From positions 1 to 64,000 of the IMG/VR virus record IMGVR_UViG_3300009091_000015: 64,000 nucleotides of DNA; one strand, 5' to 3'. The position numbers and the translations under genes were made by a program. The stretch comes from a virus. Shown here in pieces: positions 28,301 to 61,531 of this stretch (position 1 is its first letter; each line of letters opens with the position of its first letter). The notes beneath the pieces were generated by a model. The model saw nothing but the letters and a program-made list of their open reading frames with translations, was not told the DNA's origin and did no database searches.

Positions 28301-31300
28301 CTCGTCCATCATGGATATTTCATCGAGCGGTCATGCCGGAGGCGGCGAAATCCACTACGAAGCCGACGGGACACCGACGTTCCTTGGCTCCTACGACCTC
28401 ACAACCGCAACCTACAAGTGGACAGCTTCCGGCAGCGGTACGAACGAATACTACTGCGAAGCGGCGGCTGGCGGAGATCCTGGTCTAGTTGAGGGCGACT
28501 GCGTCTGGATGGACACCGTCCGCTTGACGGAGGGGACGCTCGGTTCTCTTGCCGACCACGAATGGGCCTGGGGTGACAACGATTCACTCGGGTACAGCAC
28601 GTTCTACATCCGTGACAACAGCGGCGACCCGGACACGAGCGGGGTCGCCATCGAGGCCACACAGCGAGGATGCGTCCACGCTTGGGGAATCAGCTATGTG
28701 GTAGTCGATGGTCTGACGGTCAAGTATGGGAACGGGCTGTCGTACGACGGTGGCATTCGATTCGACGAGACAAGCTACTGCACAATCCAGAACTGCGAGG
28801 CGCACCACAATCGCGGTCACGGAATCTCGCTCAAGGGCGATCACGGCGTTATTGACAACTGCCACGCTTCGTACAACGGGGCGCATAACATCGTCTCCGG
28901 TGGCAACGCGAACAACAATAACACCAACATGGAGATCAAGAATTGCATCGCGCACCACTCGTACACGATGCTATTCGTGCCACAGCCGTTCGACGGCTAC
29001 GGAATCAAGTTCCTGTACGTGGATGACAGTTCAATCCACAACAACACCATCTACGCCAACGCGGTCAATGGTATTGACCTCGATGGGGATGGTACGAACC
29101 CTGGGTGCGGCAACAACGAAATCTATGAGAACGAAATCTACGAGAACGACATCATCGGCGTGATGATCGAGTTGAAGTCGAGCGGGAACAAGATTCATCA
29201 CAACCGAATCTACAATAACGGGAGCCTTAGCGAGTGGGGGCACTTCCAGACGTTGATTTGGGCAGCATCCATCAACAACGAGTTCTACGACAATGTCATC
29301 TACAGGACGAGTGATTTCGCAGGAACAAATGCACTGCTTCAGATTGGCGACTACCAGGAGTCAGGGTGCACCGGGACGAAGATTTACAACAACACGATGG
29401 ACGGCGGCGGCTACTGCGCCAACGTCATCAAGGTAGATGGCGCGGCTGGTAACGCGACCGGCCTGAAGATCAAGAACAACATCCTAGTCGGATCGACCAG
29501 CACACCGATTGAAATCTACAGCACTGACTACACAGGATTCGAGTGTGACTACAACTGTTACGATCCACCAGCATCGTATGTCGTTGGCAGGAACTACACG
29601 GGCTACACGAAGGCGACGCACTGCTCAGGGTTCAGCCAGGACTGCAACTCAATCGTTGACGATCCACTGTTCGAGGACGAAGCCAACCACGACTACTCGC
29701 TGACTGGCTCCTCTCCCTGCAAGAACGCTGGCACGAACCTTGGGTCCGATTACGACGATGGCCTCCACTACCCTTCGACCTGGCCGAGCAGCATTACAAC
29801 GCTCGACCAGGACAGCTATGGCTCCGCCTGGGAGGTCGGAGCGTATGTCTACGTTGGGCAACTCGCCGGAGCCATCGCCGCTCAATCCGCCCTGACGGGC
29901 AACCTGGAGATCAGCGAAGACCTCGTCCTCCAGGGTCAGATCGCTGCGCAGTCGAGCTTGACTGGTGCCATCAAGCTCACTCAGAAGCTCGCTGGCACCA
30001 TCGGGGCGCAGAGCAGCTTGGCTGGTGAGGCGAAGATTACGCGGCAACTGGCGGGTTCAGTTGCGGCGCAATCGGCGCTGACCGGGACGCTCAAGCTGCG
30101 GCAGAAACTGGCCGGTGCGGTTGCTGCCCAGTCGGCTCTGGCTGGCGAACTTGGTATCACGGAAGGAGTTTGGAATCTTGCCGGGACGGTCTCTCCCCTC
30201 TCCTCACTTAGTGGCGCACTGAAACTCCAGCAGCGACTCCAAGGGACCGTCTCGGCATTTTCTTCTTTCGTCGGCGACCTCCAGGTCCAGCACAAGACAT
30301 GGGATCTGGGCGGAGAAATCTACGCCAGGACGCAACCCACTGGCGAACTCCGCGTCATCAAGCGGCTCTCCTGTGACAGGCTCGGGGCGTCCAGCTCAGT
30401 TGTCGGCAATCTGCAGCTGGTTCATGCGGTCTGGGGCCTTGCCGGAGAGGTTGGATCGAAGACCGTCGTCCAGGGTGGTATCTACGTCACGAGGAAGCTC
30501 GCCGGAGCACTCTCCGCGCAGAGTGCGCTGACTGGCAACCTCCAGTCCACAGAGGCAGCCTGGAGCCTGGCCGGGTCCGTCGCTGCGCAGTCCTCGCTTG
30601 TCGGCACCCTGGTCAACCTGAGCGACATCCCACAGCTCCTCCACCCGTACAACAGCTGGATCAACGTCTACAGCGAAAATGTCACACTGACCCAGATTCC
30701 GGCCTTGGTCGTCGCGAGCGGCTCCCACTACCACAGCGCAAGCAACGTCTATGTCCACCAGCAGCTTGTCGTTAGCAATGTCGCTCACACGCACACTGTC
30801 CAGAACGTCACATTCGTCCTGGCGAATCCGCTCTCAATTTGGGATGCTCTCCACGCCATCTCAAGCGAGGAGGTTGATCTCCTCAACTCGCTGATGATCG
30901 CGAGCACGAGTCACTACCACTCCGCCCCTAACGTCAATATCCCATACGGCGCAGAGGCGAAGGGAAAGATGGGGCTTGGGGATGCGGTCTTCGCTCTCCA
31001 GGCCACGATGAAGCTCCCGCCATATCCAATGCGGGAGCAGGAGCTGCTCAAGTTCTGCCAGCAGCTCTACTGGCAGCTGCAGACCCACTACATCCCCCAA
31101 ACCGACCGCATCGAGAACATGACGATGGTTGGTGTGGATGCGCAGCGCCCAGCCCCGGTTGGTCGGAGGCAGATGTTCTTCGCCACCGACACTTCCACGC
31201 TCTACATCGACGTGAAGACGAGCGAGGATAGCGCTGAATGGTTTGCCATCGCAGCTGGCTCTGGCAGCAACGAAGTGCATAACGATACTGTCGATGCGAG

Positions 31301-36488: not shown

Positions 36489-39400
36489 ATGCCAGCCCCG
36501 ATCCCACCGGCACCTGGGCTCACTGATCCGCAGCAGACTGGGACCAGCAGGGAAGACTGGCTGTACTTCAAGTCACCGGAGTACACGGAGCTGCCGCTGC
36601 CGGAGAAGCTCTCCAAGTTCAACAGCGTGGCGAGGAGGAGCAACACCTACGCCACGATGCCATGGGCGGAAAGGGAGAAGCTGCGCACCAAGATCCTCGG
36701 GGTCAACAGCACTCTCGATGTCTTCAAGCACGAAGCCTTCCCGGCCCTGGAGACGGTAGATCAGAACGATCTTTTCAACAGCTACGTCCAGGGGTCTACA
36801 ACATGGGAGGGCCTCGACACTGAGAAGAAGAAGAAGGCCCGTGCCAAGTGGGTGCCTGCCTTCGCTGCAGGCCAGAAGCAGCAGAAGGTTCAGGAGACGC
36901 TGCGGGCTGGCATCGAGCGCCAGAACACGCTTCCCGGCATAGACATCGAGATGCCTGAGAGCCTGCAGCCGCAAGTCCAGGCAGAGCCCTCGGAGGATGA
37001 GTTCCAGCGCCGGGTGTACTACGCCTCCATCGGGCGCAGCATCGACGAGGAGGGGAACCTCAACATCCCACGCCGTGGGAAAGAACCGTACAAGGCACCA
37101 GCCTACGTCTTCGCCATGCCTGGTATGTCCGTGGCTGAGCAGCAGGGGATCGGGGATGCTTTCGTTGAGCAGCTGAAAGACCCGGAGGTGTCCCGCTGGT
37201 GGGAGTTCACCAAGCGGCAGCAGAAGGCTCTCGCCTCGAACCCGGAGTTCACGCCCGAGGATCTAGGGGCCTTGGAGAGAGCCGGGAAGGGCCTCACTGC
37301 AGGGCTGGCACGGATGGCTTCGACGCCTGTGACTGCCTGGTCGATGATGCAGGCCGGTCATGGCATGACGAAGGCGGCAGAGGAGACCGCGAAGAAGGCC
37401 CAGAAGATCAGCGGGGTGATGGCAGAGGGCGGCTATCGTCCACTCAGGATGTCCGACTATTCCGGTGGCGACGTGGCGGGTTGGACGACGGCTCTCTTGG
37501 AAGGGGTGGCCACCACTCTACCAACGACCGCTGCTGCGGCCACCGTTGGGGCCGTGACTGGCGGCATGGGGGCTCCCCCGCTCCTTGGCAGCATCGCCGC
37601 TGGAGCCGCGCTCGAAATCCCGATGGTGTACCAGGACGTGTACGAGGCCACCGGCAAGCTGGAGCCCGGCCTTGCCACTGCTCTCGGCGGGCTCGCTGGC
37701 GTGCTTGAAGGATACGGGGCTGGCGGGATGTCGAAGCGCCTGATAGATGCTGGCGTCCCGCGCAGCGTCATCAGCAGGGCGCTCGTGAAGATGGCGAGTG
37801 GCAAAGAGCTACTCAAGGACATGAGTCAAGAGGCTCTGACTGAAGTTGCGCAGACATTCCCAGAGGCGCTGGCCATAGCCATTGCAGAAGACCCCACCAT
37901 GAAGATGGACTTCGAGACTGCTCTGGAGTTTGTCAAGAAGACAGCGCCAGAGGCAGCCGAGTCCGGGGTCACTGGGTTCTTCACCCCGCTCGCTGTCTCC
38001 GGCCCGGCGATGATAAGGCAGGACATCCGGGCGCGTCAGCCTCTGCCAATTGACCCAGCCGAGGTGGATGCTGTTGCCAGGGCCAGCATGAGGCCGACCG
38101 GGCAGGGCCAGCTCATCATCGACACGGAGGAGGCTCAGGGTGTCCGCGCCCCCTCAATCCCAGGGGCAGCGCTCGGGCCGGAGGCGATGGAAGCGGGCCG
38201 GGCCAGGGCCGCTGCAGAGCAGGCGGCGTACCGCGAGCAGGTGACTGCCGAGGATGCGACGCAGGCCCAGGCTGAGATCGACGCCTACCGGGAGCGGGCC
38301 AGGGCCAGGGGGGCCGAGGAGCCCGAAGTCCAGCTCAACGAGCGGATGAATGCGCTCGGGCCGGAGGACCAGGCCCAGGTTCGGGATCGCACCACCGAAC
38401 TGATGGCGCAGATGCGGGCGCGGTTTGTCGAGCAGTTCGGGGAGGAGCGCGTCACCCCAGCCATCGAGCAGAACATCACCCGCCGAGCCTGGGACCAGGC
38501 GCTCACGGAGATGAACGCGCAGCCCGCCCCAAGGCCGGAGGTGCTGGGGCCGACCGGCGAGTCACTGACAGCGCCAGAGCCGCTGCCTGCTGGCCCAGTG
38601 GTTGTGCCGGGGCGGGTGCAGGACGAGCGCCTGGCGGCAGAGGCGGAGCAGCGCCGAGCTGCAGCTCGCGCAAGCATGCAAGCCCAAGGGCTGGTTGAGG
38701 GTGCCAGAGCACGGCTCGCCCTCCCACCCAGGCTCGTGATTGCCGGGGAGCGCAAGCGGGAGTCGGAGCAGGCTGCCGCTGACATCCTCGCCAAGCTCCA
38801 CAGCGACGACACGCTAGGGCAGGGCCTGGCTGACATGCAGGCACTGGCCGACCAATACGGCGAGGCGCTCCAGGCCCACCTGAATCTGCAGGCTGAGCGT
38901 GAGGCGCGGGCTCGTGCAGCACGGGCGAAGCTGGACGAGCTCATCCAGGAGATCGGGAGGACGAAGCCCGGCTCGAAGCGCAACACGGCCTTGCAGGAAG
39001 AGATCGACGCCCTGCAGGAGACAGAGATCATCGACTCCCTCGAAGAGACGGAAGACGAAGCGGCTGCTCGCGAGCGGGTGCGGTTCATCGAGGATGCGCA
39101 CGCCTACATCATGGATCGTGTCACTCCAGACATGACGCCGCAGCTGTCCGCCAACCTGGACCGGATCACGCAGGGCTCGCTGCGCTGGGCGGCTCGGGTC
39201 TTTGAGCAGAACGGGATGCCGGAGCAGGCGGCGTGGGCGCAGAGGGCGGCTGACGATCCGCAGCTCGCCAGGGTTGTGCCGGAGAACATCGTCAACAGCC
39301 TGATCGAAGACGCCCGCCAGACTGCGGCCAGGGTAAACGAGAGAGAGCAGCGCCTGGCCAACCCGCGCAAGCTGAAGAACTCGCAATGGAGGCAGCTCGC

Positions 39401-42400
39401 TGCTGAAGCGCAGACGCTGCAGGAAGTGGAGCTACTGCGAGAGGAGTACATGCTCGCCCCGAAGCGTGGGCAGCAGGGGCGCTATGACCCCAAGCTGCTC
39501 GACTACTTCCACGACCGATGGATGACGCTTCACGGTGAGATGACAGGCATGGTCGAGGAGGCGCTCGGCCCTGCCCCTGAAGAAGTAACAGAACAGAGGG
39601 CGGAGACACCTTCCGAAGAGGCGGCGGCGGCGGTCTCAGAGGTGGTCCAACCAGAGCAAGAAACAGAACCCGCTGAGGAGGGTGCTCCGCCCGCTCCTAC
39701 TGTGACGGAGACGGTCGCGCCGACCGACTTCACGACCACAACCACGGCGCAGCCGCGTCTTGGCAAGCGAGCACGCCGCAAGATCAACAGGGCGAAGTCG
39801 TTCTGGGAGAGGAAGCTGAACGCCGCGAAGACGCCGGAGGCAGTCGAGGCTGTCCGCGAGCAGATGCCAGACAACCTCCCCGACGACATGGCGCAGCGGA
39901 TGTTCGACCAGCGCATGGCTGACGTGACGAAGTCGCAGCCGCCTGCTCCCAAGCGGAAGGGTCGCGGCAAGCGTGCGGCAGCGCCAGCTGTCGAGCCAGC
40001 CCCTGCCCCGGAGCCTGCCGTCGAGGCAGCCCCCGAGCCGGAGGTTGCTGAAGAGGCCCCCAAGAAGCCAGCCAAGAAGAAGGGCAAGAAGCACAACACT
40101 CGCAAGCCGTCCGCTCCTCAGCAGGCAGCGCCGACGATGAAGGCCCCGCCGAAGCCGAAGGGCAAGACCTCCCGTCGCTTCGTTCGCGCCATCGAGAACG
40201 CAGAGCGGGAGTCCGATCTCTCAAACGTCATGGTCGTCTACTTGCGGAAGGTTGCGGAAGGGCAGAGGGACGAGGCCGTCATCCACGCCTACGAGGTCAG
40301 GGCTCGCAAGCTGCGGTTCGATGCGCAGTATGGGAAGACCGGGCCTGTTCAGGAGGCGCAGCCTTTCACTGAGCCGCTCAATCCGGCGCAGGTCAGGGGG
40401 TTGGAGATTGGCAGGCCAGGACAGGAAGTTCCGCCAGTACCGCCCGTGCGTCTGACGCCGACTCCTGCTGATCGACGGCGCGGTCCACGAGCCCCGGTCC
40501 CGCTGGAGCGCCCGAGCCCAGAGTTCCTTCGCACCAGGTTTGCGCAACTCCAGAAGGAGATGGCTGACGTTCTGGCCAGGATCGAGGACCGGCTGGATGC
40601 GATCAACGAGTCCGAGATGCTCGGCCCGACCGCTAAGGTGGCAGCGCATGAAGCCATGATGGACATGACCGGCCCGCACTGGGCGCTCTACCGGAAGCTG
40701 AACGCCCGGCGCATCAGGGCTGCGAAGCTGATCTCTGACGCTCTCGTCGAGGATGGGGGCGTCTCACTGATCGGGCAGGAGCTGGAGAAGGACGGCGCGG
40801 CCCGTTACCTGAAGCTGGCCGAGCTGGCCCAGGTGCTGCGTGACAACAGGTGGGAGACGCTGCGCATCGTCTACGTTGACGCCAACGGCGTCATCATGGA
40901 CCATGAATTGCAGACCATACGAGCCCCAGGAGGAGCGCCCCTGATCCCATACCCGAGCGATGCCAAGCGGGCGCGGCAGGGTGACAAGGCCGCTGATCTG
41001 TATAGGGGCATCGGGAAGAAGTGGGCGGATGACATCCGCAAGAAAGCCAAGCGACTCGGCGCTTCAGGGGTTTACTTCGTCCACAACCACCCGCACTCGG
41101 AGACGAATAACCTGATGTCTTCTCCAGACATCTCAGCAACGATCCACGTTCACGACAATCTGCTCGGCGATCTCCTCATCGGCCATGTGCTCATCAACGA
41201 CCGCGTCGGGCAGTACATCCCTGGTGACATTTCTCAGATGGCTGGCCTGCAGGACACCATGTCCACCACGGAGAAGCTCAATCGCCTCCGACCGCTTGTC
41301 GTCTCTTACGACTTGCGGGCTTCAGTCGAGCGAGTTCCTCCAAAGCAGGGCAAGGGGCCTGGCTTCGGAGTTGCGGTCGAAGGTTACACGCTAGCTCCGA
41401 CTGTCAAAGAAGACGGGTCGCCGCTGACCTTCGCTGATGAAGACGAAGCCAATGACTTCTATGAGGACAGAGGGCTCACGCTCGGGGAGATCGTGAAGGA
41501 TCTGGAAGAGGCCGGGATGAATGACGAGCAGCTCTGGGTCGTCTTCACCGCCTTCGTAATCAAGGATGGTCAGAACGTCGAGGAGACTCTGTACGCCACG
41601 CCATTCAGGAGAGAGGCGTTCAGCTTTGAGCCGCTCGCTGCGGACTGGTCAGGCGACACCATGGCGGCGGAGTCGCAGGCTGACGCATTGGCCGGAACGA
41701 TCCGTGGGATAGCTCGCCCCCTCGGTGCGCACGGCGCTATCGTTGTCGGCATGAGCAACATGGACGAGGAACTTCTGGATGTCCTCGGAACCTACTACAG
41801 AACCGGACTCATCACCGATGTCTACTTCCTGGACGCTCCTACTGCCACGGCATCATCGCTGGGCGGTGGATTTGCCACGGAGGGACAGATGGGTAGGGCG
41901 GGACACATCCCGGCCTTGATGGTTGGCGCGTCTGGCAGAGGGATACCAACCCCCCCGGTCGGCCCCGGCTGGGCGACCCGAGGCGCGGCCACTCCACCGG
42001 CTGCGCCAGCAGCCCCCGCTGCACCAGCTGCGCCAGCAGCCCAGCCAGCACCAGCCGCTCCCGGCACGGCCCCCACTGTCACGCGGGGGCAGGGTCTCCG
42101 TGATCTGGCCGGGCTGCCCAGGCTCGGGGCTGACCGCACGCTGGCCGACCGCTTCCTCCACCGCATCTTCCGCAAGGGGCCTGAGGGTTGGGAGAGCCCG
42201 CTCCGGGCGAAGGCCATGCGGTTCTTACGTGACCAGTTCAACATCCATGGCGGGGACATCCCGAAGGGGGTAGCGCGGCTGCTCGAAGCTCGGGAGTACG
42301 CCCGTGAGCATGCCCGGCTCGATAGCCGAACGATGCAGGCCAGGCTCACGAACGTCATCAACAACCTCAAGCGGGACGGACATGATGAGGGTCAGGTCCG

Positions 42401-45400
42401 CGAAGCCATCAAGATGGTGACGGAAGGCGCGATGACGCCGAGTGACCTGGCGCTTCGGCTCGACGTGCCGATGGACAACCCGCTCATCCGTGCCTTGGAG
42501 GGGATTCACCAGGAGCACCTCGACTGGCAGCAGGCGATAGCAAGCTGGCGAGGCATGAGCCCTCAATTGAAGGAGATCATCGAGGAGCAGGTCTACTACC
42601 AGACCCGCTTCTACCAGCGGTGGTTGCTCGGTGACTACTTCATCCCGAACGACGCCGACTTCCAGAATGCTCGCCAGATCATGGAGGACGACCTGGTGGA
42701 GGAGATCAACCAGGTCATGCGCAGGGCCGGTGATCTGCGGGGCATCCGCCAGCCGGTGGATATCGCAGCCTACCTGGAGACTGGTGACGACACCCTGCTC
42801 GCCAACCTGTCGGCCAGCAGGCAAGGCTCGATCCGAAGCCTGCGCAATCACTACATGCAGCTGGCGGACCTCGTGCGCAGCATCCAGCGTGGGCCGAACA
42901 ACACCTACCAGGCGATCATCGACCTGGGCGAGATCCACGACGTGGCGCTCAAGGCGGTCAACTCCTACCTCCAGCAAGACCCGGTCGGGCCGGAGACCAC
43001 GAGCGGAGTCGGGACTGCGAACTTCATCCACCGCAAGCTGAACGAGGCGTTCCGCAAGCTGTACGGCGAGGTGACGGACCCGACCTATCGCGAGCCAACC
43101 ACGGTCGAAGTGCAGCAGAACATCCTCGCCAACATGGTGATGATGGAAAAGCTGTTCCAGGAGGGCGGGAACGCCGGGTGGTGGACGAGCCGTCGCAGTG
43201 GGACACATTCGGTCCAGCTTGGGAGCGAGACCAACCGCCGTGACAAGCTGCGCTACGGCCCCATGGCTGGCAAGTGGGTGACGCCAGGCATAGCGAAGGC
43301 GCTTGAGTCCAAGATCCCGAGCAGCAGTCTGGCATCGAAGATCGCCTCCATCCTCTGGCTCGGGCCGCAGGCTGGGATGCGGGCAACGAAGCTGCTGTGG
43401 GCCAAGACGATTGGCAGGAACGGGGCAACCTCAGTCTTCGGCCAGGCGCTGAGTTGCGGCGATGTGTACTACGGGAGTTTCTGGGGCCACCTCACAGAGG
43501 GCATCGCCATCGCATGGAAGGCCAATCCGCTCGCCAACATCGGGCCGGACATCACGCTTTACGGGGTCAGGCCGGGGCAGAAGAACGTCTGGGCCATGGA
43601 GAAAGTGGCGGAGGCAGCGAAGGAGGGGTACTACTCGCACAAAGCGCAGTCCCTGTCGCAGGGCGTGAAGGCCATCATCGAGAGCCCGCTGTTCTCTCCC
43701 TTCGGGCTCACCGGCAAGATCAGAAACTTCCTCCAGCATGCGATGGAGGCATACGCACTGATCGACTTCCCGGTGAAGTACGCCGCCTACAAGACCCACC
43801 TCGAAGAGTACGAGAAGGCCGGGGTGCCAACCGAGAAGGCGAAGGCTGGGGCCAGGGAGTGGGTGGCCCTGCACTACCAGAACCGGCACCGTGGGCCGAA
43901 GGCGTTGGACACCGTAGCCCTGGTGCCTGGTGCCGACTACGTCGGCTACACCTACGACAGCGGCAGGATGCTGGCGAACGGAGCGCACACAGCCATCACG
44001 CACGCCTTCAAGGGCGACCCAGTGATGCCAAACAAGGAGATCAACCTCCGGCCCCTGGTCGGCTTCATCAGCGCCAGGCTCCTCCCGCTCTCCGCTCTCG
44101 GTGGCGGCAACTGGCTCTACAACACGGCGTTCCGACCACTGCTCACCGATGCCTGGGCCAAGTTTGCATCCCAGACCGAGGGCGCTGGCAAGATGGCGGA
44201 CGAGATCCTCGGCTACTTCTTCCCGCACGACGACGAGGACAAGGAGAAGAAGGTCGTCAAGCGCACCCCGCTGACGAACGAGGAGATGGTCAACTTCCGA
44301 AAGTTCTGGCCCGACTACGACAAGAACATGAACGCGCTGGCCTGGAAGACGGAGTACGAGGACGGCTCGGTAGAACTCAGCTACACCGCCATGAATGGCA
44401 ACACCGCCTTCCCGGTGGAGGAGTGGATCTCCGGTGCGCTGCAGACTTCCATGGAGGGCGGCACCCCGTTCTGGAAGGCGCTGCTCGCCAACATGGCGCA
44501 GAACCTCGGGCCAGGCATGTACCTGGAGGAGCAGCTGGAGCTGTGGACTGGGCTGGACACAGCGTTCGACGTAGACCGTGAGGGCATTGGAGAGCTGATC
44601 GGTTCCCGTATAGCTCACCACCCGAACAAAGACGAGGGCAAGATTGCGAAGGAGCGCATCTCCCACTTTCTCATCAACGTGATGACCGGCCAGCTCGGCC
44701 CGACCATCCAGTACACCCACGACTACGTGAAGCGGCAGAAGCTCGGGCAGAAGGCACAGCCTGGCAGCATGATCGCGCCCAAGTCGCTGCATGATGTGCG
44801 GCAGAAGTTCACCAGGTTCGTCCGCACCTACCACTACGACAAGGACGACCTTGGCAGACTGCTCGCCTATCAGATAGCCCCCATCTCAGAGGACATCCAC
44901 ACTGACAAGTACAACGCCGGGGCGCAGCGCCGGGCTGAGGTGGACAAGGGTGTCGCCACGCAGGAGGACATCGCTCGCTCCATCTCCGGGCGCAAGGAAC
45001 TGGCGCGTGATCTAATGAAGGCCCACGAGCTAGTCCGCGCCTTCAGGTCGCTACCAGCTACCAGCGAGATTGATGATGTTCAGCTATCTCTGAAACTGCA
45101 GGCGGCTGGCTCGAAGAAGCGAGCGCCCATCGGCGACGACGAGGCGATGGCAATCATCACCGGGAAGTTTGACAGGCTGAAGCCCTGGGAGTCGAAGGCG
45201 AAGCCAACCTACGAGGGGACCGGCGAACACATAGCGGTCAAGTACATGAAGGAGAACTGGGGTCATATCAGCTACTCAGAGTTGCAGAAGCTGATGATCG
45301 AGCAGGGCTACAAGGTGGAGCCGGACATCAAGAAGTTCAAAACCTGGGCAAAGTCCAGGTGGGCGAAGTGGAAGGAGCTTGGGGAGACGTTCGAGGAAGA

Positions 45401-45407
45401 GGAGTGA
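36489..45407 (+). CDS. giant polyvalent internal virion protein with JAB/RadC-like motif, 2972 aa
   Basis: Features in order: N-terminal helical region; Ala/Gly hydrophobic segment (TTAAAATVGAVTGGMG, about 344-382); Glu/Arg/Ala coiled coils (550-1100); Pro/Ala and Lys-rich linkers (1130-1300); a JAB/MPN-type site (FVHNHPHSETNNLMSSPD, about 1530-1550) with HxH and SxxD as zinc ligands; an Ala-Pro linker (AAPAAPAAPAA, about 1840); and a long C-terminal part like polyvalent-protein associated domains (YETGDDTLLANLS, RPLVGFISARLLPLSAL). It is probably carried in the head and ejected into the host. The 8.9 kb gene has no frameshift. GTG 36480 is an alternative start. Confidence 0.75.
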   Translation: MPAPIPPAPGLTDPQQTGTSREDWLYFKSPEYTELPLPEKLSKFNSVARRSNTYATMPWAEREKLRTKILGVNSTLDVFKHEAFPALETVDQNDLFNSYVQGSTTWEGLDTEKKKKARAKWVPAFAAGQKQQKVQETLRAGIERQNTLPGIDIEMPESLQPQVQAEPSEDEFQRRVYYASIGRSIDEEGNLNIPRRGKEPYKAPAYVFAMPGMSVAEQQGIGDAFVEQLKDPEVSRWWEFTKRQQKALASNPEFTPEDLGALERAGKGLTAGLARMASTPVTAWSMMQAGHGMTKAAEETAKKAQKISGVMAEGGYRPLRMSDYSGGDVAGWTTALLEGVATTLPTTAAAATVGAVTGGMGAPPLLGSIAAGAALEIPMVYQDVYEATGKLEPGLATALGGLAGVLEGYGAGGMSKRLIDAGVPRSVISRALVKMASGKELLKDMSQEALTEVAQTFPEALAIAIAEDPTMKMDFETALEFVKKTAPEAAESGVTGFFTPLAVSGPAMIRQDIRARQPLPIDPAEVDAVARASMRPTGQGQLIIDTEEAQGVRAPSIPGAALGPEAMEAGRARAAAEQAAYREQVTAEDATQAQAEIDAYRERARARGAEEPEVQLNERMNALGPEDQAQVRDRTTELMAQMRARFVEQFGEERVTPAIEQNITRRAWDQALTEMNAQPAPRPEVLGPTGESLTAPEPLPAGPVVVPGRVQDERLAAEAEQRRAAARASMQAQGLVEGARARLALPPRLVIAGERKRESEQAAADILAKLHSDDTLGQGLADMQALADQYGEALQAHLNLQAEREARARAARAKLDELIQEIGRTKPGSKRNTALQEEIDALQETEIIDSLEETEDEAAARERVRFIEDAHAYIMDRVTPDMTPQLSANLDRITQGSLRWAARVFEQNGMPEQAAWAQRAADDPQLARVVPENIVNSLIEDARQTAARVNEREQRLANPRKLKNSQWRQLAAEAQTLQEVELLREEYMLAPKRGQQGRYDPKLLDYFHDRWMTLHGEMTGMVEEALGPAPEEVTEQRAETPSEEAAAAVSEVVQPEQETEPAEEGAPPAPTVTETVAPTDFTTTTTAQPRLGKRARRKINRAKSFWERKLNAAKTPEAVEAVREQMPDNLPDDMAQRMFDQRMADVTKSQPPAPKRKGRGKRAAAPAVEPAPAPEPAVEAAPEPEVAEEAPKKPAKKKGKKHNTRKPSAPQQAAPTMKAPPKPKGKTSRRFVRAIENAERESDLSNVMVVYLRKVAEGQRDEAVIHAYEVRARKLRFDAQYGKTGPVQEAQPFTEPLNPAQVRGLEIGRPGQEVPPVPPVRLTPTPADRRRGPRAPVPLERPSPEFLRTRFAQLQKEMADVLARIEDRLDAINESEMLGPTAKVAAHEAMMDMTGPHWALYRKLNARRIRAAKLISDALVEDGGVSLIGQELEKDGAARYLKLAELAQVLRDNRWETLRIVYVDANGVIMDHELQTIRAPGGAPLIPYPSDAKRARQGDKAADLYRGIGKKWADDIRKKAKRLGASGVYFVHNHPHSETNNLMSSPDISATIHVHDNLLGDLLIGHVLINDRVGQYIPGDISQMAGLQDTMSTTEKLNRLRPLVVSYDLRASVERVPPKQGKGPGFGVAVEGYTLAPTVKEDGSPLTFADEDEANDFYEDRGLTLGEIVKDLEEAGMNDEQLWVVFTAFVIKDGQNVEETLYATPFRREAFSFEPLAADWSGDTMAAESQADALAGTIRGIARPLGAHGAIVVGMSNMDEELLDVLGTYYRTGLITDVYFLDAPTATASSLGGGFATEGQMGRAGHIPALMVGASGRGIPTPPVGPGWATRGAATPPAAPAAPAAPAAPAAQPAPAAPGTAPTVTRGQGLRDLAGLPRLGADRTLADRFLHRIFRKGPEGWESPLRAKAMRFLRDQFNIHGGDIPKGVARLLEAREYAREHARLDSRTMQARLTNVINNLKRDGHDEGQVREAIKMVTEGAMTPSDLALRLDVPMDNPLIRALEGIHQEHLDWQQAIASWRGMSPQLKEIIEEQVYYQTRFYQRWLLGDYFIPNDADFQNARQIMEDDLVEEINQVMRRAGDLRGIRQPVDIAAYLETGDDTLLANLSASRQGSIRSLRNHYMQLADLVRSIQRGPNNTYQAIIDLGEIHDVALKAVNSYLQQDPVGPETTSGVGTANFIHRKLNEAFRKLYGEVTDPTYREPTTVEVQQNILANMVMMEKLFQEGGNAGWWTSRRSGTHSVQLGSETNRRDKLRYGPMAGKWVTPGIAKALESKIPSSSLASKIASILWLGPQAGMRATKLLWAKTIGRNGATSVFGQALSCGDVYYGSFWGHLTEGIAIAWKANPLANIGPDITLYGVRPGQKNVWAMEKVAEAAKEGYYSHKAQSLSQGVKAIIESPLFSPFGLTGKIRNFLQHAMEAYALIDFPVKYAAYKTHLEEYEKAGVPTEKAKAGAREWVALHYQNRHRGPKALDTVALVPGADYVGYTYDSGRMLANGAHTAITHAFKGDPVMPNKEINLRPLVGFISARLLPLSALGGGNWLYNTAFRPLLTDAWAKFASQTEGAGKMADEILGYFFPHDDEDKEKKVVKRTPLTNEEMVNFRKFWPDYDKNMNALAWKTEYEDGSVELSYTAMNGNTAFPVEEWISGALQTSMEGGTPFWKALLANMAQNLGPGMYLEEQLELWTGLDTAFDVDREGIGELIGSRIAHHPNKDEGKIAKERISHFLINVMTGQLGPTIQYTHDYVKRQKLGQKAQPGSMIAPKSLHDVRQKFTRFVRTYHYDKDDLGRLLAYQIAPISEDIHTDKYNAGAQRRAEVDKGVATQEDIARSISGRKELARDLMKAHELVRAFRSLPATSEIDDVQLSLKLQAAGSKKRAPIGDDEAMAIITGKFDRLKPWESKAKPTYEGTGEHIAVKYMKENWGHISYSELQKLMIEQGYKVEPDIKKFKTWAKSRWAKWKELGETFEEEE

Positions 45408-55217: not shown

Positions 55218-55239
55218 GCCTCACCTCCATGGGATTCAG

Positions 55240-55296
55240 TCTGCCTCGCAGTGGGAGAGAGCGGAGGTGCAGTGACCCTCTCCCATGCGAGGCAGA
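55240..55296 (-). promoter_or_regulatory. long RNA hairpin in leader of the 81-aa gene
   Basis: On the minus strand TCTGCCTCGCATGGGAGAG pairs with a copy 18 bases later that has one extra C, forming a stem of about 19 bp. No T-run follows, so it is not an ordinary terminator. The SD of the next gene lies outside and downstream of the stem. Confidence 0.6.
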
Positions 55297-55301
55297 ACGA
55301 A

Positions 55302-55625: not shown

Positions 55626-55822
55626 CACTCTACCTCCAGCCCTTCGTTCAGCAGAACCTGAGCGACGCCAGCTGCCATGCGATGATCGACGCAGAGCCGG
55701 TAGCGCCCCATCCACTGCCATCCCTCCGTCGCCAGCGTCTCGTCCATCACTCGCAGTGCGTCCTCGTTCTGCGCCTCGAACACGATGATCGACCCCTCGT
55801 TCTCGACCCGAACGTCACACAT
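55625..55822 (-). CDS. hypothetical protein, 65 aa
   Basis: The sequence (VRVENEGSIIVFEAQNEDALRVMDETLATEGWQWMGRYRLCVDHRMA) is a compact beta-alpha-beta pattern common in small phage early proteins. It overlaps the 80-residue gene upstream by eight bases. Function unknown. Confidence 0.6.
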   Translation of the reverse strand: MCDVRVENEGSIIVFEAQNEDALRVMDETLATEGWQWMGRYRLCVDHRMAAGVAQVLLNEGLEVE

Positions 55823-56057
55823 CCTGCTCCTCCTTCTTCATGCCTGGGCCAGGCGTCATCTTCAGGAAGCTGAGGTTGCCCTTCTTGTCCCAGTCTGCCC
55901 AGACTGTGGCAACGATCACTCCCTGCCGGTACAGAATCCATCGGTGCTTGCCCTGCATGGGGCGGTACTCACGCTGGTAGTATTGCGGCTGGCCACTGGT
56001 CAGCGAGTCGAACAGCTTCCGCAACTGTCGCCGCACTCTCTCCGGCATGTTCAGCAT
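55815..56057 (-). CDS. hypothetical basic protein, 80 aa
   Basis: The N-terminus is helical and basic (NMPERVRRQLRKLFDSLTS), then beta-rich (HRWILYRQGVIVATVWADWDKKGNLSFLKM). The ATG at 56057 has its SD (GAGGAGAGGGGAG) inside the long hairpin of 56063-56110, so its translation may be controlled by RNA structure. Confidence 0.6.
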   Translation of the reverse strand: MLNMPERVRRQLRKLFDSLTSGQPQYYQREYRPMQGKHRWILYRQGVIVATVWADWDKKGNLSFLKMTPGPGMKKEEQDV

Positions 56058-56062: not shown

Positions 56063-56129
56063 CTCCCCTCTCCTCTGCCCTCACAAAGTGAGGGGCAGAG
56101 GAGAGGGGAGGAGTCGGCCTCCTCCCCTC
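56063..56129 (-). promoter_or_regulatory. two-hairpin RNA leader element, copy 1
   Basis: Read on the minus strand, an 11-bp hairpin (56129-56103) comes first. A 22-bp hairpin (56110-56063) follows, with one bulged base, a TCAC-TTT-GTGA tip and a TTT loop. The two share bases 56103-56110, so they cannot both form fully. The SD of the 56057 gene lies in the 3' arm of the long hairpin. The same design recurs at 57922 and 59618. Confidence 0.7.
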
Positions 56130-56134
56130 GTCGC

Positions 56135-56383
56135 TCATCCCCAGTTCCGCAGCCTGCGGATGAAGCAGTCGCTGCCATGATCGACGTTCCTGATGTTGAA
56201 CTCGATGCCTCGCTCCTTCAGTGCGTCGATGAACAGGGCAGCATCGCAGTCCTCTTCGAGGAACACGCTGTTGCCATCCACGTAGCTGAAGCACGACGGC
56301 CTCACGCCGTAGGTCTCCATCATGCGCCGGTCCACTTGGAGCCAGCCATGGCCGGGGTCGGAATGGAAAGTGAGGGTGAGCAT
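56135..56383 (-). CDS. hypothetical protein, 82 aa
   Basis: The sequence starts MLTLTFHSDPGHGWLQVDRRMMETYG and continues FSYVDGNSVFLEEDCDAALFIDALKERG. This pattern recurs in small phage early proteins of unknown function. The ATG shares one base with the upstream stop. It is the last gene before hairpin element 1. Confidence 0.65.
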   Translation of the reverse strand: MLTLTFHSDPGHGWLQVDRRMMETYGVRPSCFSYVDGNSVFLEEDCDAALFIDALKERGIEFNIRNVDHGSDCFIRRLRNWG

Positions 56384-56613
56384 CAGTCACCTCCTTCCTT
56401 GGCGAGCATCCGCTCCTCCACCAGCTCCTGCTCCGCATCGGCGGCGACGTTGACAATCTTGATGGCGAGCTGCTCGATCTCCTCAGCTTCGATGATGATG
56501 TCTGAGCAGTTGTCCTCAGTGAGCCCGAGCCCCTCGCTGAATGCCTCCTCGATGTTCAGGATCGCAACCTTGATCCGCCTCACGCAGTCCCGCATCTCCT
56601 GCTTCGGTGTCAC
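56383..56613 (-). CDS. hypothetical acidic helical protein, 76 aa
   Basis: The whole sequence is helical and acidic (MTPKQEMRDCVRRIKVAILNIEEAFSEGLG, DIIIEAEEIEQLAIKIVNVAADAEQELVEERM). A helical bundle or coiled coil is likely. It overlaps its neighbours by one and four bases. Function unknown. Confidence 0.6.
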   Translation of the reverse strand: MTPKQEMRDCVRRIKVAILNIEEAFSEGLGLTEDNCSDIIIEAEEIEQLAIKIVNVAADAEQELVEERMLAKEGGD

Positions 56614-57272
56614 GTCACCCTCCCTTGGTATGCAGCCTTCACGACGGCGACCGTGTCATAGTCCTTGGGCGCAGCGTCCGCCACTCGCAGCGGCATGAGC
56701 AGCCCGACCAGCTCACCCTCGACCTGGAGCTGGATGGGTGCAGTCACGTCGTGTCGCTTGCACCAATACTCCACACCAGGGATGAGGTACTCGATCAGCT
56801 TCGCCTTGCTCGGGTCGATGGGAACGGGCGGGTCGATCATGCCAGGGGACATGAGCAGCACGGACACCGCCTTGCCAACGCAGACGTTGACCAACTCATC
56901 CCTGGTGCCACGCCACAGTTCCGACTTGTCGTTCTTCGCGCTGTTGAAGATGCGTTCGATGCCTTCGAGCCTGACCTTGCCGTTCGCCGCTCCTTCAGTC
57001 ATGCTCTTGTACGGAGGCTTGCGTTGCAGTGCCGATGCCTTGAGCAGGATGGTGCCGTCTGTGTACCACCCGCTGCCAGCCGGGGCAGCGTTCCCGTCCT
57101 GAGTCCACGCCTTCCACTTGTTGCGCTTGAAGTCTGCGAAGCGGACGCCTTGGCTCTGCTCCTCCTCCTCATGCTCCACCACCTGCGGTGCCGTCGGTTC
57201 GTTCGCCATGCCGAGCATCTGCTGCATCTCAGCGATGGCATCGTCGATCTTCGCCAGCAATGCCTCACTCAT
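56610..57272 (-). CDS. hypothetical early protein, 220 aa
   Basis: An N-terminal helix (LLAKIDDAIAEMQQMLGMA) and an acidic linker precede an alpha/beta core (WYTDGTILLKASALQRKPPYKSM, KAKLIEYLIPGVEYWCKRHDVTAPIQLQVEGELVGLLMPLRV). This is one of the larger unknown early genes. No catalytic motif was found by eye. Its 5' start is coupled to the 144-residue gene by an eight-base overlap. Confidence 0.65.
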   Translation of the reverse strand: MSEALLAKIDDAIAEMQQMLGMANEPTAPQVVEHEEEEQSQGVRFADFKRNKWKAWTQDGNAAPAGSGWYTDGTILLKASALQRKPPYKSMTEGAANGKVRLEGIERIFNSAKNDKSELWRGTRDELVNVCVGKAVSVLLMSPGMIDPPVPIDPSKAKLIEYLIPGVEYWCKRHDVTAPIQLQVEGELVGLLMPLRVADAAPKDYDTVAVVKAAYQGRVT

Positions 57273-57699
57273 TCGATGCCTCCTTCTTGCGAGAGATCAC
57301 TTCGTCGAACAGCGTGTGGTAGGTGTGGCTGTCCATGAACGCCACCCTCTTGGCGAGCACCTGCTCCAGGAATTCGGGCGTGATGATGAGCCGCTTGATC
57401 GCATCCTCAGTCAGCACACAGTAGGTGCCGGTCGGATAGACGCCCCTCTGCATGGCTGGCTGTCCCTTGTAGGTCGGCTCCTCGCTCGCCTCGATGATGG
57501 TGATGCCCAGGTCCATGCCTGACTGGCACTTGGCACATGGCTCGTAGGTAACGCAGGCATGGCGTGGTGCCTCGATGTCATGGAGTCCGCCTCGATCCAT
57601 CCTACCCATGAGCAGGACCGTGCCATCGTCCTGCCCGCACCAGAAGCAGACACCGAGCGATGGATTGACGCCGTACTTCTCAGACAGTCGGATGCTCAT
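57265..57699 (-). CDS. conserved zinc-ribbon protein, 144 aa
   Basis: SEKYGVNPSLGVCFWCGQDDG with CVTYEPCAKCQSGMDLGITIIE is a recognisable conserved protein of phages and some bacteria: CxxC...CxxC, then GITIIE, then YPTGTYCVLTEDAIKRL. Zinc binding is very likely, while the biological role is unknown. It lies in the same operon as other zinc-ribbon genes. The ATG at 57699 overlaps the upstream gene. Confidence 0.7.
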   Translation of the reverse strand: MSIRLSEKYGVNPSLGVCFWCGQDDGTVLLMGRMDRGGLHDIEAPRHACVTYEPCAKCQSGMDLGITIIEASEEPTYKGQPAMQRGVYPTGTYCVLTEDAIKRLIITPEFLEQVLAKRVAFMDSHTYHTLFDEVISRKKEASNE

Positions 57700-57911
57700 G
57701 GCTCCTCCTCTCCTGGCAGCCTCGGTATCGAGAGATGCCCACAGTCGTTGCCTTCCTCGTCGCTGTCCACCCACACAACCACAGCCTTGATCCCTCCCTT
57801 CTCGATGACCAGTCCGAAGGACTCCGTGCCAGGAGTCAGCGTCGTGCCGATGATGGTGTAACCGATCAGCCGCTTCGCCTGCTCCGCTTCCCACTTGGCG
57901 TTGTGACTCAT
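57696..57911 (-). CDS. hypothetical protein, 71 aa
   Basis: A helix (KWEAEQAKRLIG) is followed by beta strands (TIIGTTLTPGTESFGLVIEKGGIKAVVVWVDSD), a common layout of small phage proteins. Its leader contains the second copy of the two-hairpin RNA element, and its SD (AGGAGG) lies directly after the stem. Function unknown. Confidence 0.65.
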   Translation of the reverse strand: MSHNAKWEAEQAKRLIGYTIIGTTLTPGTESFGLVIEKGGIKAVVVWVDSDEEGNDCGHLSIPRLPGEEEP

Positions 57912-57921
57912 CGCTCCTCCT

Positions 57922-57988
57922 TTCCCTTCTCCTCTTCGCTCTCACAAAGTGATGAGCGAAGAGGAGAAGGGAAGGCCGTCGCCTCCCC
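57922..57988 (-). promoter_or_regulatory. two-hairpin RNA leader element, copy 2
   Basis: On the minus strand a GGGGAGGC/GCCTTCCC hairpin (57988-57969, one G-U pair) overlaps the 5' arm of a 24-bp hairpin (57973-57922). This has a bulged A directly before TCAC, a TTT loop and GTGA on the other side. The lower stem differs in sequence from copy 1 but keeps its pairing. AGGAGGAGCG and the ATG at 57911 follow at once. Confidence 0.7.
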
Positions 57989-57996
57989 TCCATGCC

Positions 57997-58293
57997 TCAC
58001 TCCGATTGCTCGCCGTACTTCCAGTCGCTCAGGCATTCATGGCAGTAGCCATGATCTGCGATGTGCGTCTTGGCATAGGCCCCCGTGTCGATGCGATGGC
58101 AGCGAGGACACTCAACCTCCTCCCGCTCGCCCTCTGCCACGTCGAGCATGGCATCGAGCAGATGGATCACGCCGGTCACGGCCAGCCATTCGTCGCTCTC
58201 CCTGGTCAGGCGCATCTCAAGCAGCGCATCCCTCTGCTCCCTGAGCAGGTCAACGTCCACGTTCGGCACGGTGATGGTGATGCCTTCACTCAT
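57997..58293 (-). CDS. zinc-binding hypothetical protein, 98 aa
   Basis: N-terminal beta and helical segments (ITITVPNVDVDLLREQRDALLEMRL) lead to CPRCHR and CHECLSDW near the C-terminus, two CxxC pairs that should bind one zinc. It overlaps the next upstream gene by eight bases. The role is unknown. Confidence 0.65.
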   Translation of the reverse strand: MSEGITITVPNVDVDLLREQRDALLEMRLTRESDEWLAVTGVIHLLDAMLDVAEGEREEVECPRCHRIDTGAYAKTHIADHGYCHECLSDWKYGEQSE

Positions 58294-59053
58294 AGTGGGG
58301 CCTCCTCGACGGGTATCCCTGCCCAGGCTGGAGCTGGATGCGTACCCTGTACTCGCCGTCGCTGTTCGTGTGGTACATGGATGGCCGACCCTCGTTGCTA
58401 AACTCGCCGTCCTCCAGGAATCGCGCCAGCATGTACGCATCCTTCAGGCATGACACGGGGTACACTCGCTCGATGCTGCCCACCGTGTACCACCAGCCGC
58501 CCTCCTCCGGGCCACCGTATGCCTGGTCCTCCAGGTAGACGTTGACGAACAGCTGAGTCACGCCGTCAGCCATTCGCTCGGCGCACTCGGGACACAGCGT
58601 CACTCGCAATGGCTCGGCATCCATCGGCAGCGCCTTGCTGTACACCTCCCAGGCATGGAAGGTGGGAGTGCCATCGTCAAGGAAGTAGTCCAGCCAGTCG
58701 AACTCTCCGTCGCCCGGCTCCTCCTTGTCATCGGGCCTGTCCTTCAGGCATGCCTCGCAGATGTCGTGCCTCATCATGTGAGGCATCGAGTACATCAGGT
58801 GCCGCTCCCCGATCTTCTCGATCCAATGCGCTGGCTCGTTGTCAATGTCCGGGACCACCACATCCTCAGCGAATGCCTTGACATTCAGCGCCCCAGTCTG
58901 CTCATCCCTGTACTCGACCGACACCTCGCCGTCGTACCTGATCTCGTGCCATGTCTGGCATGCCTCGCACCACCACTCGACCACCGTGTCCATGGTGCCG
59001 TCATCGCACAGCCGCACGTCCTGGACACCAACCTTAACCTGGTCAATCCTCAT
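58286..59053 (-). CDS. hypothetical zinc-ribbon early protein, 255 aa
   Basis: The start at 59053 (GGAGGTGTTCG) gives MRIDQVKVGVQDVRLCDDG. CEACQTWHEIRYDGE is the first Cys pair, CEACL near 100 the second and CPECAERM near 155 a third. A beta-rich tail (YPVSCLKDAYMLARFLEDGEF and EYRVRIQLQPGQG) closes the protein. It is the largest unknown in this cluster. Multiple metal sites suggest a nucleic-acid or protein-binding role. Confidence 0.6.
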   Translation of the reverse strand: MRIDQVKVGVQDVRLCDDGTMDTVVEWWCEACQTWHEIRYDGEVSVEYRDEQTGALNVKAFAEDVVVPDIDNEPAHWIEKIGERHLMYSMPHMMRHDICEACLKDRPDDKEEPGDGEFDWLDYFLDDGTPTFHAWEVYSKALPMDAEPLRVTLCPECAERMADGVTQLFVNVYLEDQAYGGPEEGGWWYTVGSIERVYPVSCLKDAYMLARFLEDGEFSNEGRPSMYHTNSDGEYRVRIQLQPGQGYPSRRPHYE

Positions 59054-59351
59054 CGAACACCTCCTCCAATTCCTCGAAGTCAGGGTCGCCATACTCGCTC
59101 GGCATCTCGACGCCACAGTGATGGCACCACTCGGGCGGACCCTCCCAGTAGACATCGCATGCCACGATGTTCCACTGCGGGTCGCTCCTCTCATGCCTGA
59201 ACTCCCACACTTTGTTGACACACTCGGCGCAGATCGAGTCCCCATCCTCCGTGATGTAGCGGATGTTGTAGCCGCCAGGCCATGCGCAGGCCGGGAGCTG
59301 AGCCCCAGGTTGCACGCCAGCCATCTTCCATACCGCCAGCCCGATGCTCAT
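59043..59351 (-). CDS. zinc-ribbon hypothetical protein, 102 aa
   Basis: CAECVNKVWEF near residue 42 and CHHCGVEMP near 76 provide two Cys pairs, with WNIVACDVYWEGPPEW between. The tail is acidic (DPDFEELEEVFDED). GGAGGTGCGGC precedes the start. Function unknown. Confidence 0.65.
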   Translation of the reverse strand: MSIGLAVWKMAGVQPGAQLPACAWPGGYNIRYITEDGDSICAECVNKVWEFRHERSDPQWNIVACDVYWEGPPEWCHHCGVEMPSEYGDPDFEELEEVFDED

Positions 59352-59366
59352 GCCGCACCTCCTTCG

Positions 59367-59413
59367 ATCCGTCCCTTCGGGTCATCCGTCCCTTCGGTTC
59401 ATCCGTCCCTTCG
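59367..59413. repeat. three 13-base direct repeats, 17-base spacing
   Basis: ATCCGTCCCTTCG occurs at 59367-59379, 59384-59396 and 59401-59413, exactly 17 bases apart. The last copy overlaps the 3' end of the 68-residue gene and the first lies just upstream of the SD of the 102-residue gene. It may be a binding site array or slippage product. Confidence 0.7.
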
Positions 59414-59605
59414 AGATTCCCGCTCGCTCAGCACGTTCTGGTACTCCTGCACAATGGCCGGGTCGTAGCGCATGAAGATCATGTCTGCGACCTTGCGCCG
59501 CAACAGCGGGAGCGGAAGCCCCTCTGCCATGGCGCGGGCCTCGGCCCGCAACAGCCGCTCGTTCCTGCCATTGCGAGCCGCCGCAGTCCCTCGCTTGCCT
59601 GCCAT
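59399..59605 (-). CDS. hypothetical basic helical protein, 68 aa
   Basis: A very basic N-terminus (MAGKRGTAAARNGRNERLLRAEARAMAEG) is followed by a helix (VADMIFMRYDPAIVQEYQNVL), consistent with nucleic-acid binding. Its leader holds the third copy of the two-hairpin RNA element, with GGAGGTGCGGC just after the stem. Function unknown. Confidence 0.6.
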   Translation of the reverse strand: MAGKRGTAAARNGRNERLLRAEARAMAEGLPLPLLRRKVADMIFMRYDPAIVQEYQNVLSERESRRDG

Positions 59606-59617
59606 GCCGCACCTCCT

Positions 59618-59680
59618 CTCTCCTCTCCTCTCTCCTCACAAAGTGAGGGAGAGAGGAGAGGAGAGGGGCCGAAGCCCCTC
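59618..59680 (-). promoter_or_regulatory. two-hairpin RNA leader element, copy 3
   Basis: On the minus strand GAGGGGC-TTCG-GCCCCTC (59680-59663, a stable UUCG loop) is followed by a 22-bp hairpin (59665-59618). This has a bulged C before TCAC, a TTT loop and GTGA, as in the other copies. AGGAGGTGCGGC and the ATG at 59605 follow directly. Confidence 0.7.
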
Positions 59681-60144: not shown

Positions 60145-60177
60145 AAAAAAGCCCGGCGGGGCGAAGCCCCACCGGGC
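60145..60177 (-). terminator. intrinsic terminator, leftward
   Basis: On the minus strand GCCCGGTGGGGC-TTC-GCCCCGCCGGGC (12 bp with one U-G pair) is followed by six T. It ends the transcript of the gene at 60201 and limits expression of the genes further left unless antitermination or read-through occurs. Confidence 0.85.
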
Positions 60178-60200: not shown

Positions 60201-60683
60201 CTACCGCGAGACGGGGCGGATGGTGATCTCGAAGAGATCCGGGCCGTCCAGCTTCTTGCCGTTGCCCTTGGCAACCCCGAAGGCGTCGAGCAGCTCGCGG
60301 CGGACGTGCATGTCTCCCACGAAGCCACCGGCATAGCCGGTCGCCTCGACGTTCAACGGCACGCCGTTGACAGTCTCCCGGATGACCAGGGAGTTTTGGG
60401 TCGCCTTGACTTTCGTCAAGAGGATCGTGATGACGCCGTCCTTGACGGCGACGGCCTGCTTCACGGACGGCGCGGGAGGCGAAGCCTTGCGCGTGGTCCG
60501 CTTGGGCTTCGACGCCGTGGCCGGCGCCGGGATCGTGACCGGAGCGGCGACCGGCGCGGCAGCCTTCGGCTGCTCCTGCGGGGTCGGGGTCGGCGCGGAG
60601 AACTGCGCCTTGACCATGTTGCCGACGATGGTGGTGAGAGCAGCAAGCTGCTCCGCGATCTGGTCGATGTCCGCCTTGGCCAT
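60201..60683 (-). CDS. early protein with Pro/Ala/Lys linker, short form, 160 aa
   Basis: CTAGGAGGGTCAAC directly precedes ATG 60683. The protein has an N-terminal helix (IDQIAEQLAALTTIVGNMVKAQF), a disordered Pro/Ala/Lys linker (residues 31-78, PAPATASKPKRTTRKASPP) and a C-terminal beta domain (DGVITILLTKVKATQNSLVIRETVNGVPLNVEATGY). The layout suggests a small oligomeric binding protein, such as a single-strand DNA- or protein-binding accessory, but this is only a guess. Confidence 0.65.
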   Translation of the reverse strand: MAKADIDQIAEQLAALTTIVGNMVKAQFSAPTPTPQEQPKAAAPVAAPVTIPAPATASKPKRTTRKASPPAPSVKQAVAVKDGVITILLTKVKATQNSLVIRETVNGVPLNVEATGYAGGFVGDMHVRRELLDAFGVAKGNGKKLDGPDLFEITIRPVSR

Positions 60684-60953
60684 GTTGACCCTCCTAGGGC
60701 CTGAAGCTGCTACGCAGCTTCGGTAGTGATTCGCTATGCGAATCGGGTCGAAGATCCGCTCGATTCTCTCCTCCGGAGAGAACTGCGGCGGGCCGTCATA
60801 CTCCATCCTCCGCAGCCAGGCTTCGCCTGGCAGCGGATCGTCCTCGAAATCGGGGTCGAGCAACCCAGCCTGCAGGAGCAGAAGCTCCGCTTCTGCCGTG
60901 AGCACTGGGTTGAACGGCTCCCGAATTCGCCGGACCCTACCCTCGTCTCTCAT
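60201..60953 (-). CDS. early protein, long form with nested start, 250 aa
   Basis: The ATG at 60953 has a strong SD (GGAGGTGCAGG) hidden in a 19-bp hairpin. Residues 1-75 are acidic/hydrophobic (LTAEAELLLLQAGLLDPDFEDDPLPGEAWL). Residues 76-90 are encoded by two perfect hairpins (60728-60744 and 60703-60721) and then run, without a stop, into the 160-residue protein that has its own ATG and SD at 60683. Two proteins from one frame are therefore possible. The N-terminal part alone has no known domain. Confidence 0.5.
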   Translation of the reverse strand: MRDEGRVRRIREPFNPVLTAEAELLLLQAGLLDPDFEDDPLPGEAWLRRMEYDGPPQFSPEERIERIFDPIRIANHYRSCVAASGPRRVNMAKADIDQIAEQLAALTTIVGNMVKAQFSAPTPTPQEQPKAAAPVAAPVTIPAPATASKPKRTTRKASPPAPSVKQAVAVKDGVITILLTKVKATQNSLVIRETVNGVPLNVEATGYAGGFVGDMHVRRELLDAFGVAKGNGKKLDGPDLFEITIRPVSR

Positions 60954-61023
60954 CCTGCACCTCCTCGACGAAGTCTCGGAGGTGCAGGTGAGAGACGGGG
61001 TGGCCAGCCCCAACTGCACCTCC
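60945..61023 (-). promoter_or_regulatory. three-segment SD switch in leader
   Basis: On the minus strand GGAGGTGCAG (61023-61014) is followed by CTGCACCTCC (60987-60978) and then by GGAGGTGCAG (60964-60955), which is the SD of the 60953 gene. The middle segment can pair perfectly with either of the others. The downstream pairing extends to about 19 bp (60996-60978 with 60964-60945) and buries both SD and ATG. Confidence 0.7.
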
Positions 61024-61360: not shown

Positions 61361-61415
61361 CTGACCCCTCTCTTTCGGAGGAGTCGTAAGACTCCTCCTC
61401 CGAGAGAGGGGTCAG
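61361..61415 (-). promoter_or_regulatory. long RNA hairpin in leader of first early gene
   Basis: On the minus strand a 26-base and a 25-base arm, CTGACCCCTCTC...GGAGTC and GACTCC...GAGAGGGGTCAG, pair around TTAC with small internal bulges. The stem ends at the SD (GGAGGTGCAGC). It lacks the TCAC-TTT-GTGA tip of the elements at 56, 58 and 59.6 kb. Confidence 0.6.
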
Positions 61416-61477
61416 AGCTGCCGCCTCCCGCATGCCAACCACGCGCAGATCCGCACAGGGTTGGGGTGTCAAACACT

Positions 61478-61524
61478 AGTGCCAAAATGGCACTCCCGTA
61501 GGGAGTGAAGTGCCAAAATGGCAT
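61478..61524. promoter_or_regulatory. two TGCCA-AAA-TGGCA palindromes, 31 bases apart
   Basis: AGTGCCAAAATGGCACT (61478-61494, perfect 7-bp arms) and AGTGCCAAAATGGCA (61509-61523) repeat with a period of 31 bases, three helical turns. ACTCCC-GTA-GGGAGT (61492-61506) sits between them. This is the layout of paired operators bound by one repressor on the same face of DNA. Confidence 0.6.
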
Positions 61525-61531
61525 GTCACGA

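Follow-up and report, generated by a model that had tools for sequence, protein, structure and literature searches.

In phage T7, the early polycistronic mRNA is processed at five RNase III sites, which are important for optimal translation (PMC4858673). In the cluster K mycobacteriophages, the inverted repeats called ESAS recur just before the starts of non-structural genes and have a function that is unknown (PMC3203893). The put RNA of phage HK022 is about 70 nt long and forms two stem-loops with bulges in the early transcripts of the phage (PMC9378689).

The window analysed is a stretch of 64,000 nt that comprises most of the 65,098-base IMG/VR record of an uncultivated freshwater phage. 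Its portal and major capsid proteins match SU10 families, and the portal relatives found in bacterial and archaeal genome bins are just 26–28% identical and come from mixed phyla. Rightward structural genes occupy the left part of the window. The right part, at about 61.4 to 48.0 kb, contains approximately 30 small leftward genes, including a gene for a RecE-like exonuclease, and the three hairpins reported here are located inside this leftward early region. The divergent region near 61.5–62.2 kb carries two GTGCCATTTTGGCAC-like palindromes (61475-61530), which, judging by their sequence, are probably repressor operators. A minus-strand hairpin with TTTTTT that resembles an intrinsic terminator is found within the early operon at 60151-60177, past the gene ending at 60201. 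Two long open frames were also observed. The frame at 22311-31685 (3124 aa) features right-handed beta-helix and carbohydrate-binding domains and is likely, from these domains, to encode a giant tail protein. The frame at 36489-45407 (2972 aa) has no match in PHROGs, Pfam or PDB; as regards an N4-type DNA-hairpin promoter, which would go with a giant virion RNA polymerase, the 2972-aa protein neither matched a polymerase in these databases nor contained the polymerase motif set.

The long hairpins and the genes after them are given below, L054 being a contig of a related phage. Gene starts were read from the SD and homology and not taken from annotation.

56063-56110, minus strand: long hairpin, copy 1; 22 pairs (18 bp below a bulged C), tip TCAC-TTT-GTGA; counterpart L054:11174-11220
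55815-56057, minus strand: gene after copy 1; 80 aa, no family match
57922-57973, minus strand: long hairpin, copy 2; 24 pairs (20 bp below a bulged A), tip TCAC-TTT-GTGA; counterpart L054:8436-8484
57696-57911, minus strand: gene after copy 2; 71 aa, no family match
59618-59665, minus strand: long hairpin, copy 3; 22 pairs (18 bp below a bulged C), tip TCAC-TTT-GTGA; counterpart L054:6308-6354
59399-59605, minus strand: gene after copy 3; 68 aa, no family match

An earlier reading of the sequence only had placed hairpins of 22–24 bp at these minus-strand positions, and the analysis confirmed them, together with the tip TCAC-TTT-GTGA and the one unpaired base of the 5′ arm (C, A, C) in all three copies. 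Their scores in the hairpin scan (54, 56 and 58) are the top three of the strand, the next being 43, and 100 shuffles of the entire window produced no hairpin above 48. The fold energies are 4.9–6.5 sd under those of dinucleotide shuffles. In the 64 kb, the motif TCACTTTGTGA is found only at these three hairpins, once in each, with an expectation of 0.03 occurrences. The distance from stem to start codon is 5, 10 and 12 nt in copies 1, 2 and 3. As had been read earlier, the SD is within the stem in copy 1 only, where GGGGAG forms the end of the 3′ arm of the long hairpin; AGGAGG of copy 2 is immediately downstream of the long stem and AGGAGGTG of copy 3 is just 3′ of it.

All three stems are followed by purine-rich sequence and the U-run is absent; hence, the hairpins are not intrinsic terminators, and none of the three copies appears in the list from the terminator scan. 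Coding through the copy 1 hairpin was also rejected: an in-frame extension is open in the window, but a stop codon falls in the tip of L054 copy 1. At copy 2, an ATG with an SD (57993 in the window, L054:8416) opens a frame that crosses the hairpin and, in L054, is in frame with the downstream gene. Rfam 15 yielded no match in the window above the gathering threshold, and the sub-threshold matches were nearly all to generic long-stem microRNA models.

The protein scan led to L053, a record that is almost identical (99.99%), and to a related phage represented by two contigs, L054 and L055, which show 75–97% DNA identity to the window in aligned blocks. The copies that the sequence-only reading proposed to look for in relatives are present: at each of the three junctions, the related phage has a hairpin of equal size whose arms differ in sequence (copy 3 in L054 only). 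Covariation in the lower stem had been guessed at from three paralogues and is now evident in six copies from two phage species. MAFFT misplaced the bulge, and pairs were counted on a gap-free alignment with the bulged base removed. Over 22 pairs in six copies, 97.7% of the cells pair, the three unpaired cells being the single defects of the L054 copies, and all 18 lower pairs are Watson–Crick in every copy. Two-sided changes were found in 17 of 22 pairs and one-sided changes in none, and the covariation score is 0.80 vs. 0.35 in shuffles and ≤0.29 for slid partners. Despite the differing sequence, the stem keeps a length of 21–24 pairs in all six copies, about two turns of dsRNA. Comparison of these sequences points to a real RNA control or processing element, found in the phage and in its closest known relative. 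At the copy 2 junction, L054 has two other genes after the hairpin and only then the gene that follows in the window; thus, the element belongs to the junction and not to one gene or protein.

As to the proposal of a new RNA regulatory family, the family so far comprises two phage species and has no Rfam match. Four protein scans of IMG/VR and a pattern for the neighbouring 60940-61000 hairpin led to these two species only. Isolate phages gave no DNA match in a search whose low-complexity filter may hide a short hairpin query. The covariance model built from the six copies gave no convincing match in the other phage records to which it was applied; its E-values for its own six copies follow from how it was built and do not count as independent evidence. 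Judged by portal protein, the next phage is L071 (55%), which contains neither CACTTTGTG nor a model match nor such hairpins.

Three further long hairpins were observed in the early region.

61362-61414, minus strand: long leader hairpin of the first early gene (61350); TTT tip absent
60940-61000, minus strand: long hairpin enclosing the SD and ATG of the candidate start 60953; identical in L054
55235-55301, minus strand: leader hairpin of gene 55217; 26 pairs, unrelated tip; one base differs across the hairpin in L054

A long hairpin therewith abuts the ribosome site at six early starts (59605, 57911, 56057, 61350, 60953 and 55217) and includes it in two of them; the hairpin sites are intercistronic and near a start, four of them at a distance of 5–17 nt. 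The tip is loosely like that of the reported copies only in 60940-61000, where GAC-TTC-GTC stands over a tandem GA/GA mismatch and the covariance-model score is 28.7 bits. The counterpart of 61362-61414 in the relative (L054:4573-4629) differs in nearly all of its sequence and still keeps the hairpin, with the tip CAC-GTA-GTG and a 5′ bulge. The loop of 55235-55301 holds CACCTCC, complementary to the SD of gene 55217 itself, GGAGGTG. In the gaps of the late operon, over a hand-picked list of late genes, no hairpin of comparable strength was found near starts.

The reading favoured here, with a probability of roughly 40%, is that these are intercistronic ribosome-site hairpins that would be cut by host RNase III, by analogy with the early sites of T7. 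The early genes would most likely be transcribed as one long leftward mRNA, in which the stems would form and offer host RNase III about two turns of dsRNA. Before the cut, the stem would hide the SD (copy 1) or hem it in (copies 2 and 3). The cut would separate the cistrons, and the purine-rich 3′ arm with a free SD would become a new 5′ leader; a short upstream hairpin could compete for the lower part of the 5′ arm and thereby loosen the stem at its base. The constant stem of about two dsRNA turns, the free drift of the arms and the repetition between cistrons fit a dsRNA enzyme. The hairpins, of 21–24 pairs, do lie between genes and are placed in the early operon only, near starts, and the 61362-61414 hairpin has outlasted a near-complete turnover of its sequence, as a dsRNA enzyme would allow. 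Against this reading speak the invariance of ACTTTGTG in six of six copies and stems devoid of G-U pairs; the single operon transcript is moreover an assumption, with the terminator-like site at 60151-60177 lying within the operon. A conserved loop is not a known requirement of RNase III, and conservation of the tip would need a second factor or a folding role beyond RNase III.

Each of the six copies contains exactly one helix defect, two to four pairs below the TTT loop. The defect is a 5′-arm bulge in all three window copies and a 1 × 1 mismatch (A.G, A.A, T.T) in all three L054 copies. The sequence-only reading had taken the bulge and TCAC together as a conserved recognition feature of the MS2 type; this is not supported, as the bulge is missing from all three L054 copies and ACTTTGTG alone is invariant. 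The unpaired 5′-arm base near the loop, which an MS2-type operator would conserve, is found in the three window copies and in none of the three from L054. The MS2-type reading is weakened by the lack of conservation of the defect and by the maintenance of 18 additional pairs. Between orthologous copies, 0 of 15 inner tip units changed vs. 20 of 54 stem pairs (p ~0.015, calculated by hand for a comparison chosen after the fact). The conservation of the tip, which had been noticed prior to testing, refers to six related copies from two phage species.

RNase III processing is ranked above its main rival, a translational operator, which we consider rather unlikely. A phage or host protein would bind the ACUUUGUG tip and the defect two to four pairs below the three-base loop and would block or free several early ribosome sites jointly, the protein and the type of defect having co-evolved between the phages. 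Such a protein would account for an invariant tip over covarying stems, for the contrast between tip units and stem pairs among orthologues and for a defect that is uniform within each phage, a bulge in the window and a mismatch in L054; the gene 43 operators of T4 and RB69 likewise have the ten uppermost hairpin bases in common, the loop among them (PMC3014915). It would not account for 18 further perfect pairs, which recognition does not need, or for a defect that varies in kind and position, and the tip is absent from the hairpins at 61350 and 55217. Of the early proteins scanned, none was recognised as RNA-binding.

In viruses generally, the tip was found in 51 stretches, vs. 47 for a shuffled tip, and thus is not itself enriched. 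The 5′-bulged TCAC-TTT-GTGA hairpin with at least six pairs below the bulge was detected in three unrelated groups (the L006 group, the L014 group and L049) vs. none for the shuffled tip, which is weak evidence for tip hairpins outside the lineage. A hairpin of the form GTTCCC-c-TCAC-TTT-GTGA-GGGAAC precedes a small ORF at L006:9170-9260 and in L015, L017, L029, L032, L033, L035, L036, L038, L047 and L052, which are AT-rich viral contigs; L035 and L047 show a compensating G-C to T-A change with an unchanged tip and bulge in a pattern search that preselected the tip. Less likely still than an operator is a phage RNA regulon, in which one trans-acting factor would read the ACUUUGUG tip and the nearby helix defect and would simultaneously set how several early genes are translated or processed, the factor and the type of defect co-evolving between species. 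The tip hairpins of the L006 group, the L014 group and L049 may hint that the factor of such a regulon is host-derived.

A purine-rich arm ahead of each long hairpin is able to pair with the lower part of the long 5′ arm. The resulting short hairpins were read from the sequence, and those of copies 1 and 3 were also seen in folds.

56103-56129, minus strand: short hairpin, copy 1; 11 bp, 3′ arm has 8 nt in common with the long 5′ arm
57969-57988, minus strand: short hairpin, copy 2; 8 pairs including G-T in the window, all Watson–Crick in L054; 5-nt overlap with the long 5′ arm
59663-59680, minus strand: short hairpin, copy 3; 7 bp core, TTCG loop; 3-nt overlap with the long 5′ arm

The overlap claimed earlier for copies 1 and 2 holds, and copy 3, said merely to touch, overlaps too, by 3 nt. 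Such overlaps make the suggested mutual exclusion of short and long hairpins possible, though not general: predicted folds use the short hairpin in copy 1, in copy 3 and in L054 copy 1, while copy 2 and the second and third copies of L054 mostly fold into the long hairpin. Only at copy 1 does the short hairpin clearly free the SD side in these folds. A translation-coupled switch would involve three mutually exclusive arms, namely P1 (the purine arm of the short hairpin), Y (the shared pyrimidine arm) and P3 (the 3′ arm with the SD). A ribosome finishing the upstream gene would cover P1, Y would pair with P3 and the SD would close. We regard this as improbable. P1, Y and P3 overlap at three positions in both phages, in copies 1 and 2 no more than ~5 nt separate the beginning of P1 from the stop of the upstream gene, and the SD side of copy 1 is predicted to open with P1 paired and to close with P1 removed; but in copy 2, and in the second and third copies of L054, the long hairpin prevails whether P1 is present or not, and the SD is outside the stem in four of the six copies.

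G-U pairs are entirely absent from the 129 paired cells of the stems, which is unexpected for a purely RNA-level constraint and could mean that a DNA-level process keeps the repeats perfect. Of the 18 stem pairs, 3 differ between window copies 1 and 3, vs. 5 and 9 between these copies and their own orthologues; being closer to each other, the copies may exchange sequence. Both observations, as well as the high score of the opposite strand with the covariance model, would suit an inverted repeat that acts as a cruciform or single-strand hairpin, or is kept perfect by template-switch correction, and has no role in RNA. This explanation seems very improbable for hairpins that always have a single orientation, 5–12 nt ahead of a start codon with the SD in or beside the stem, whose defect, in the window copies, is confined to the 5′ arm and that the late operon does not have. 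The chance is equally slim that the hairpins are passive insulators or mRNA stabilisers that shield the SD from pairing with upstream sequence and stop exonucleases, neither being cut nor binding a protein, which would suit generic hairpins of differing sequence at six early starts but leaves the conserved tip, the constant stem length and the repeated single near-loop defect unexplained.

Compared with the described systems, the window leaders share with HK022 put a length of about 70 nt and two bulged stem-loops in early transcripts. By layout, put is located near early promoters, one per transcript, whereas the window has three copies inside the operon before SDs and in this departs from the put type. 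The put RNA is further characterised by suppression of transcription termination in cis. Like ESAS, the hairpins are inverted repeats repeated directly ahead of start codons. In ESAS, the arms share a 17 bp consensus, the spacer is variable and a 13 bp SAS lies alongside; in the window the tip is conserved and the arms vary between copies, unlike the conserved arm sequence of ESAS. No SAS (GGGATAGGAGCCC) was noticed on reading of the sequence. The operators of the MS2 coat protein and of T4 and RB69 gene 43 are likewise hairpins near a ribosome site with a defect or a conserved loop; in contrast to these, the window stem is much longer, the kind of defect is not conserved and there is no known binder. 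If the hairpins are bound by a protein, they would represent a new RNA–protein pair with natural variants for specificity studies. A repeated, covarying leader hairpin with a conserved tip is a test case for single-cistron output within one early mRNA. In T7, too, the early RNase III sites (e.g., R1.1) form a series of hairpins on a polycistronic early mRNA; no relation to them was found by sequence or in Rfam, and the window hairpins are predicted to be cut. The ACTTTGTG tip is not known from the T7 sites. If the hairpins are cut by RNase III, the T7 strategy extends to the phage lineage with the SU10 portal.
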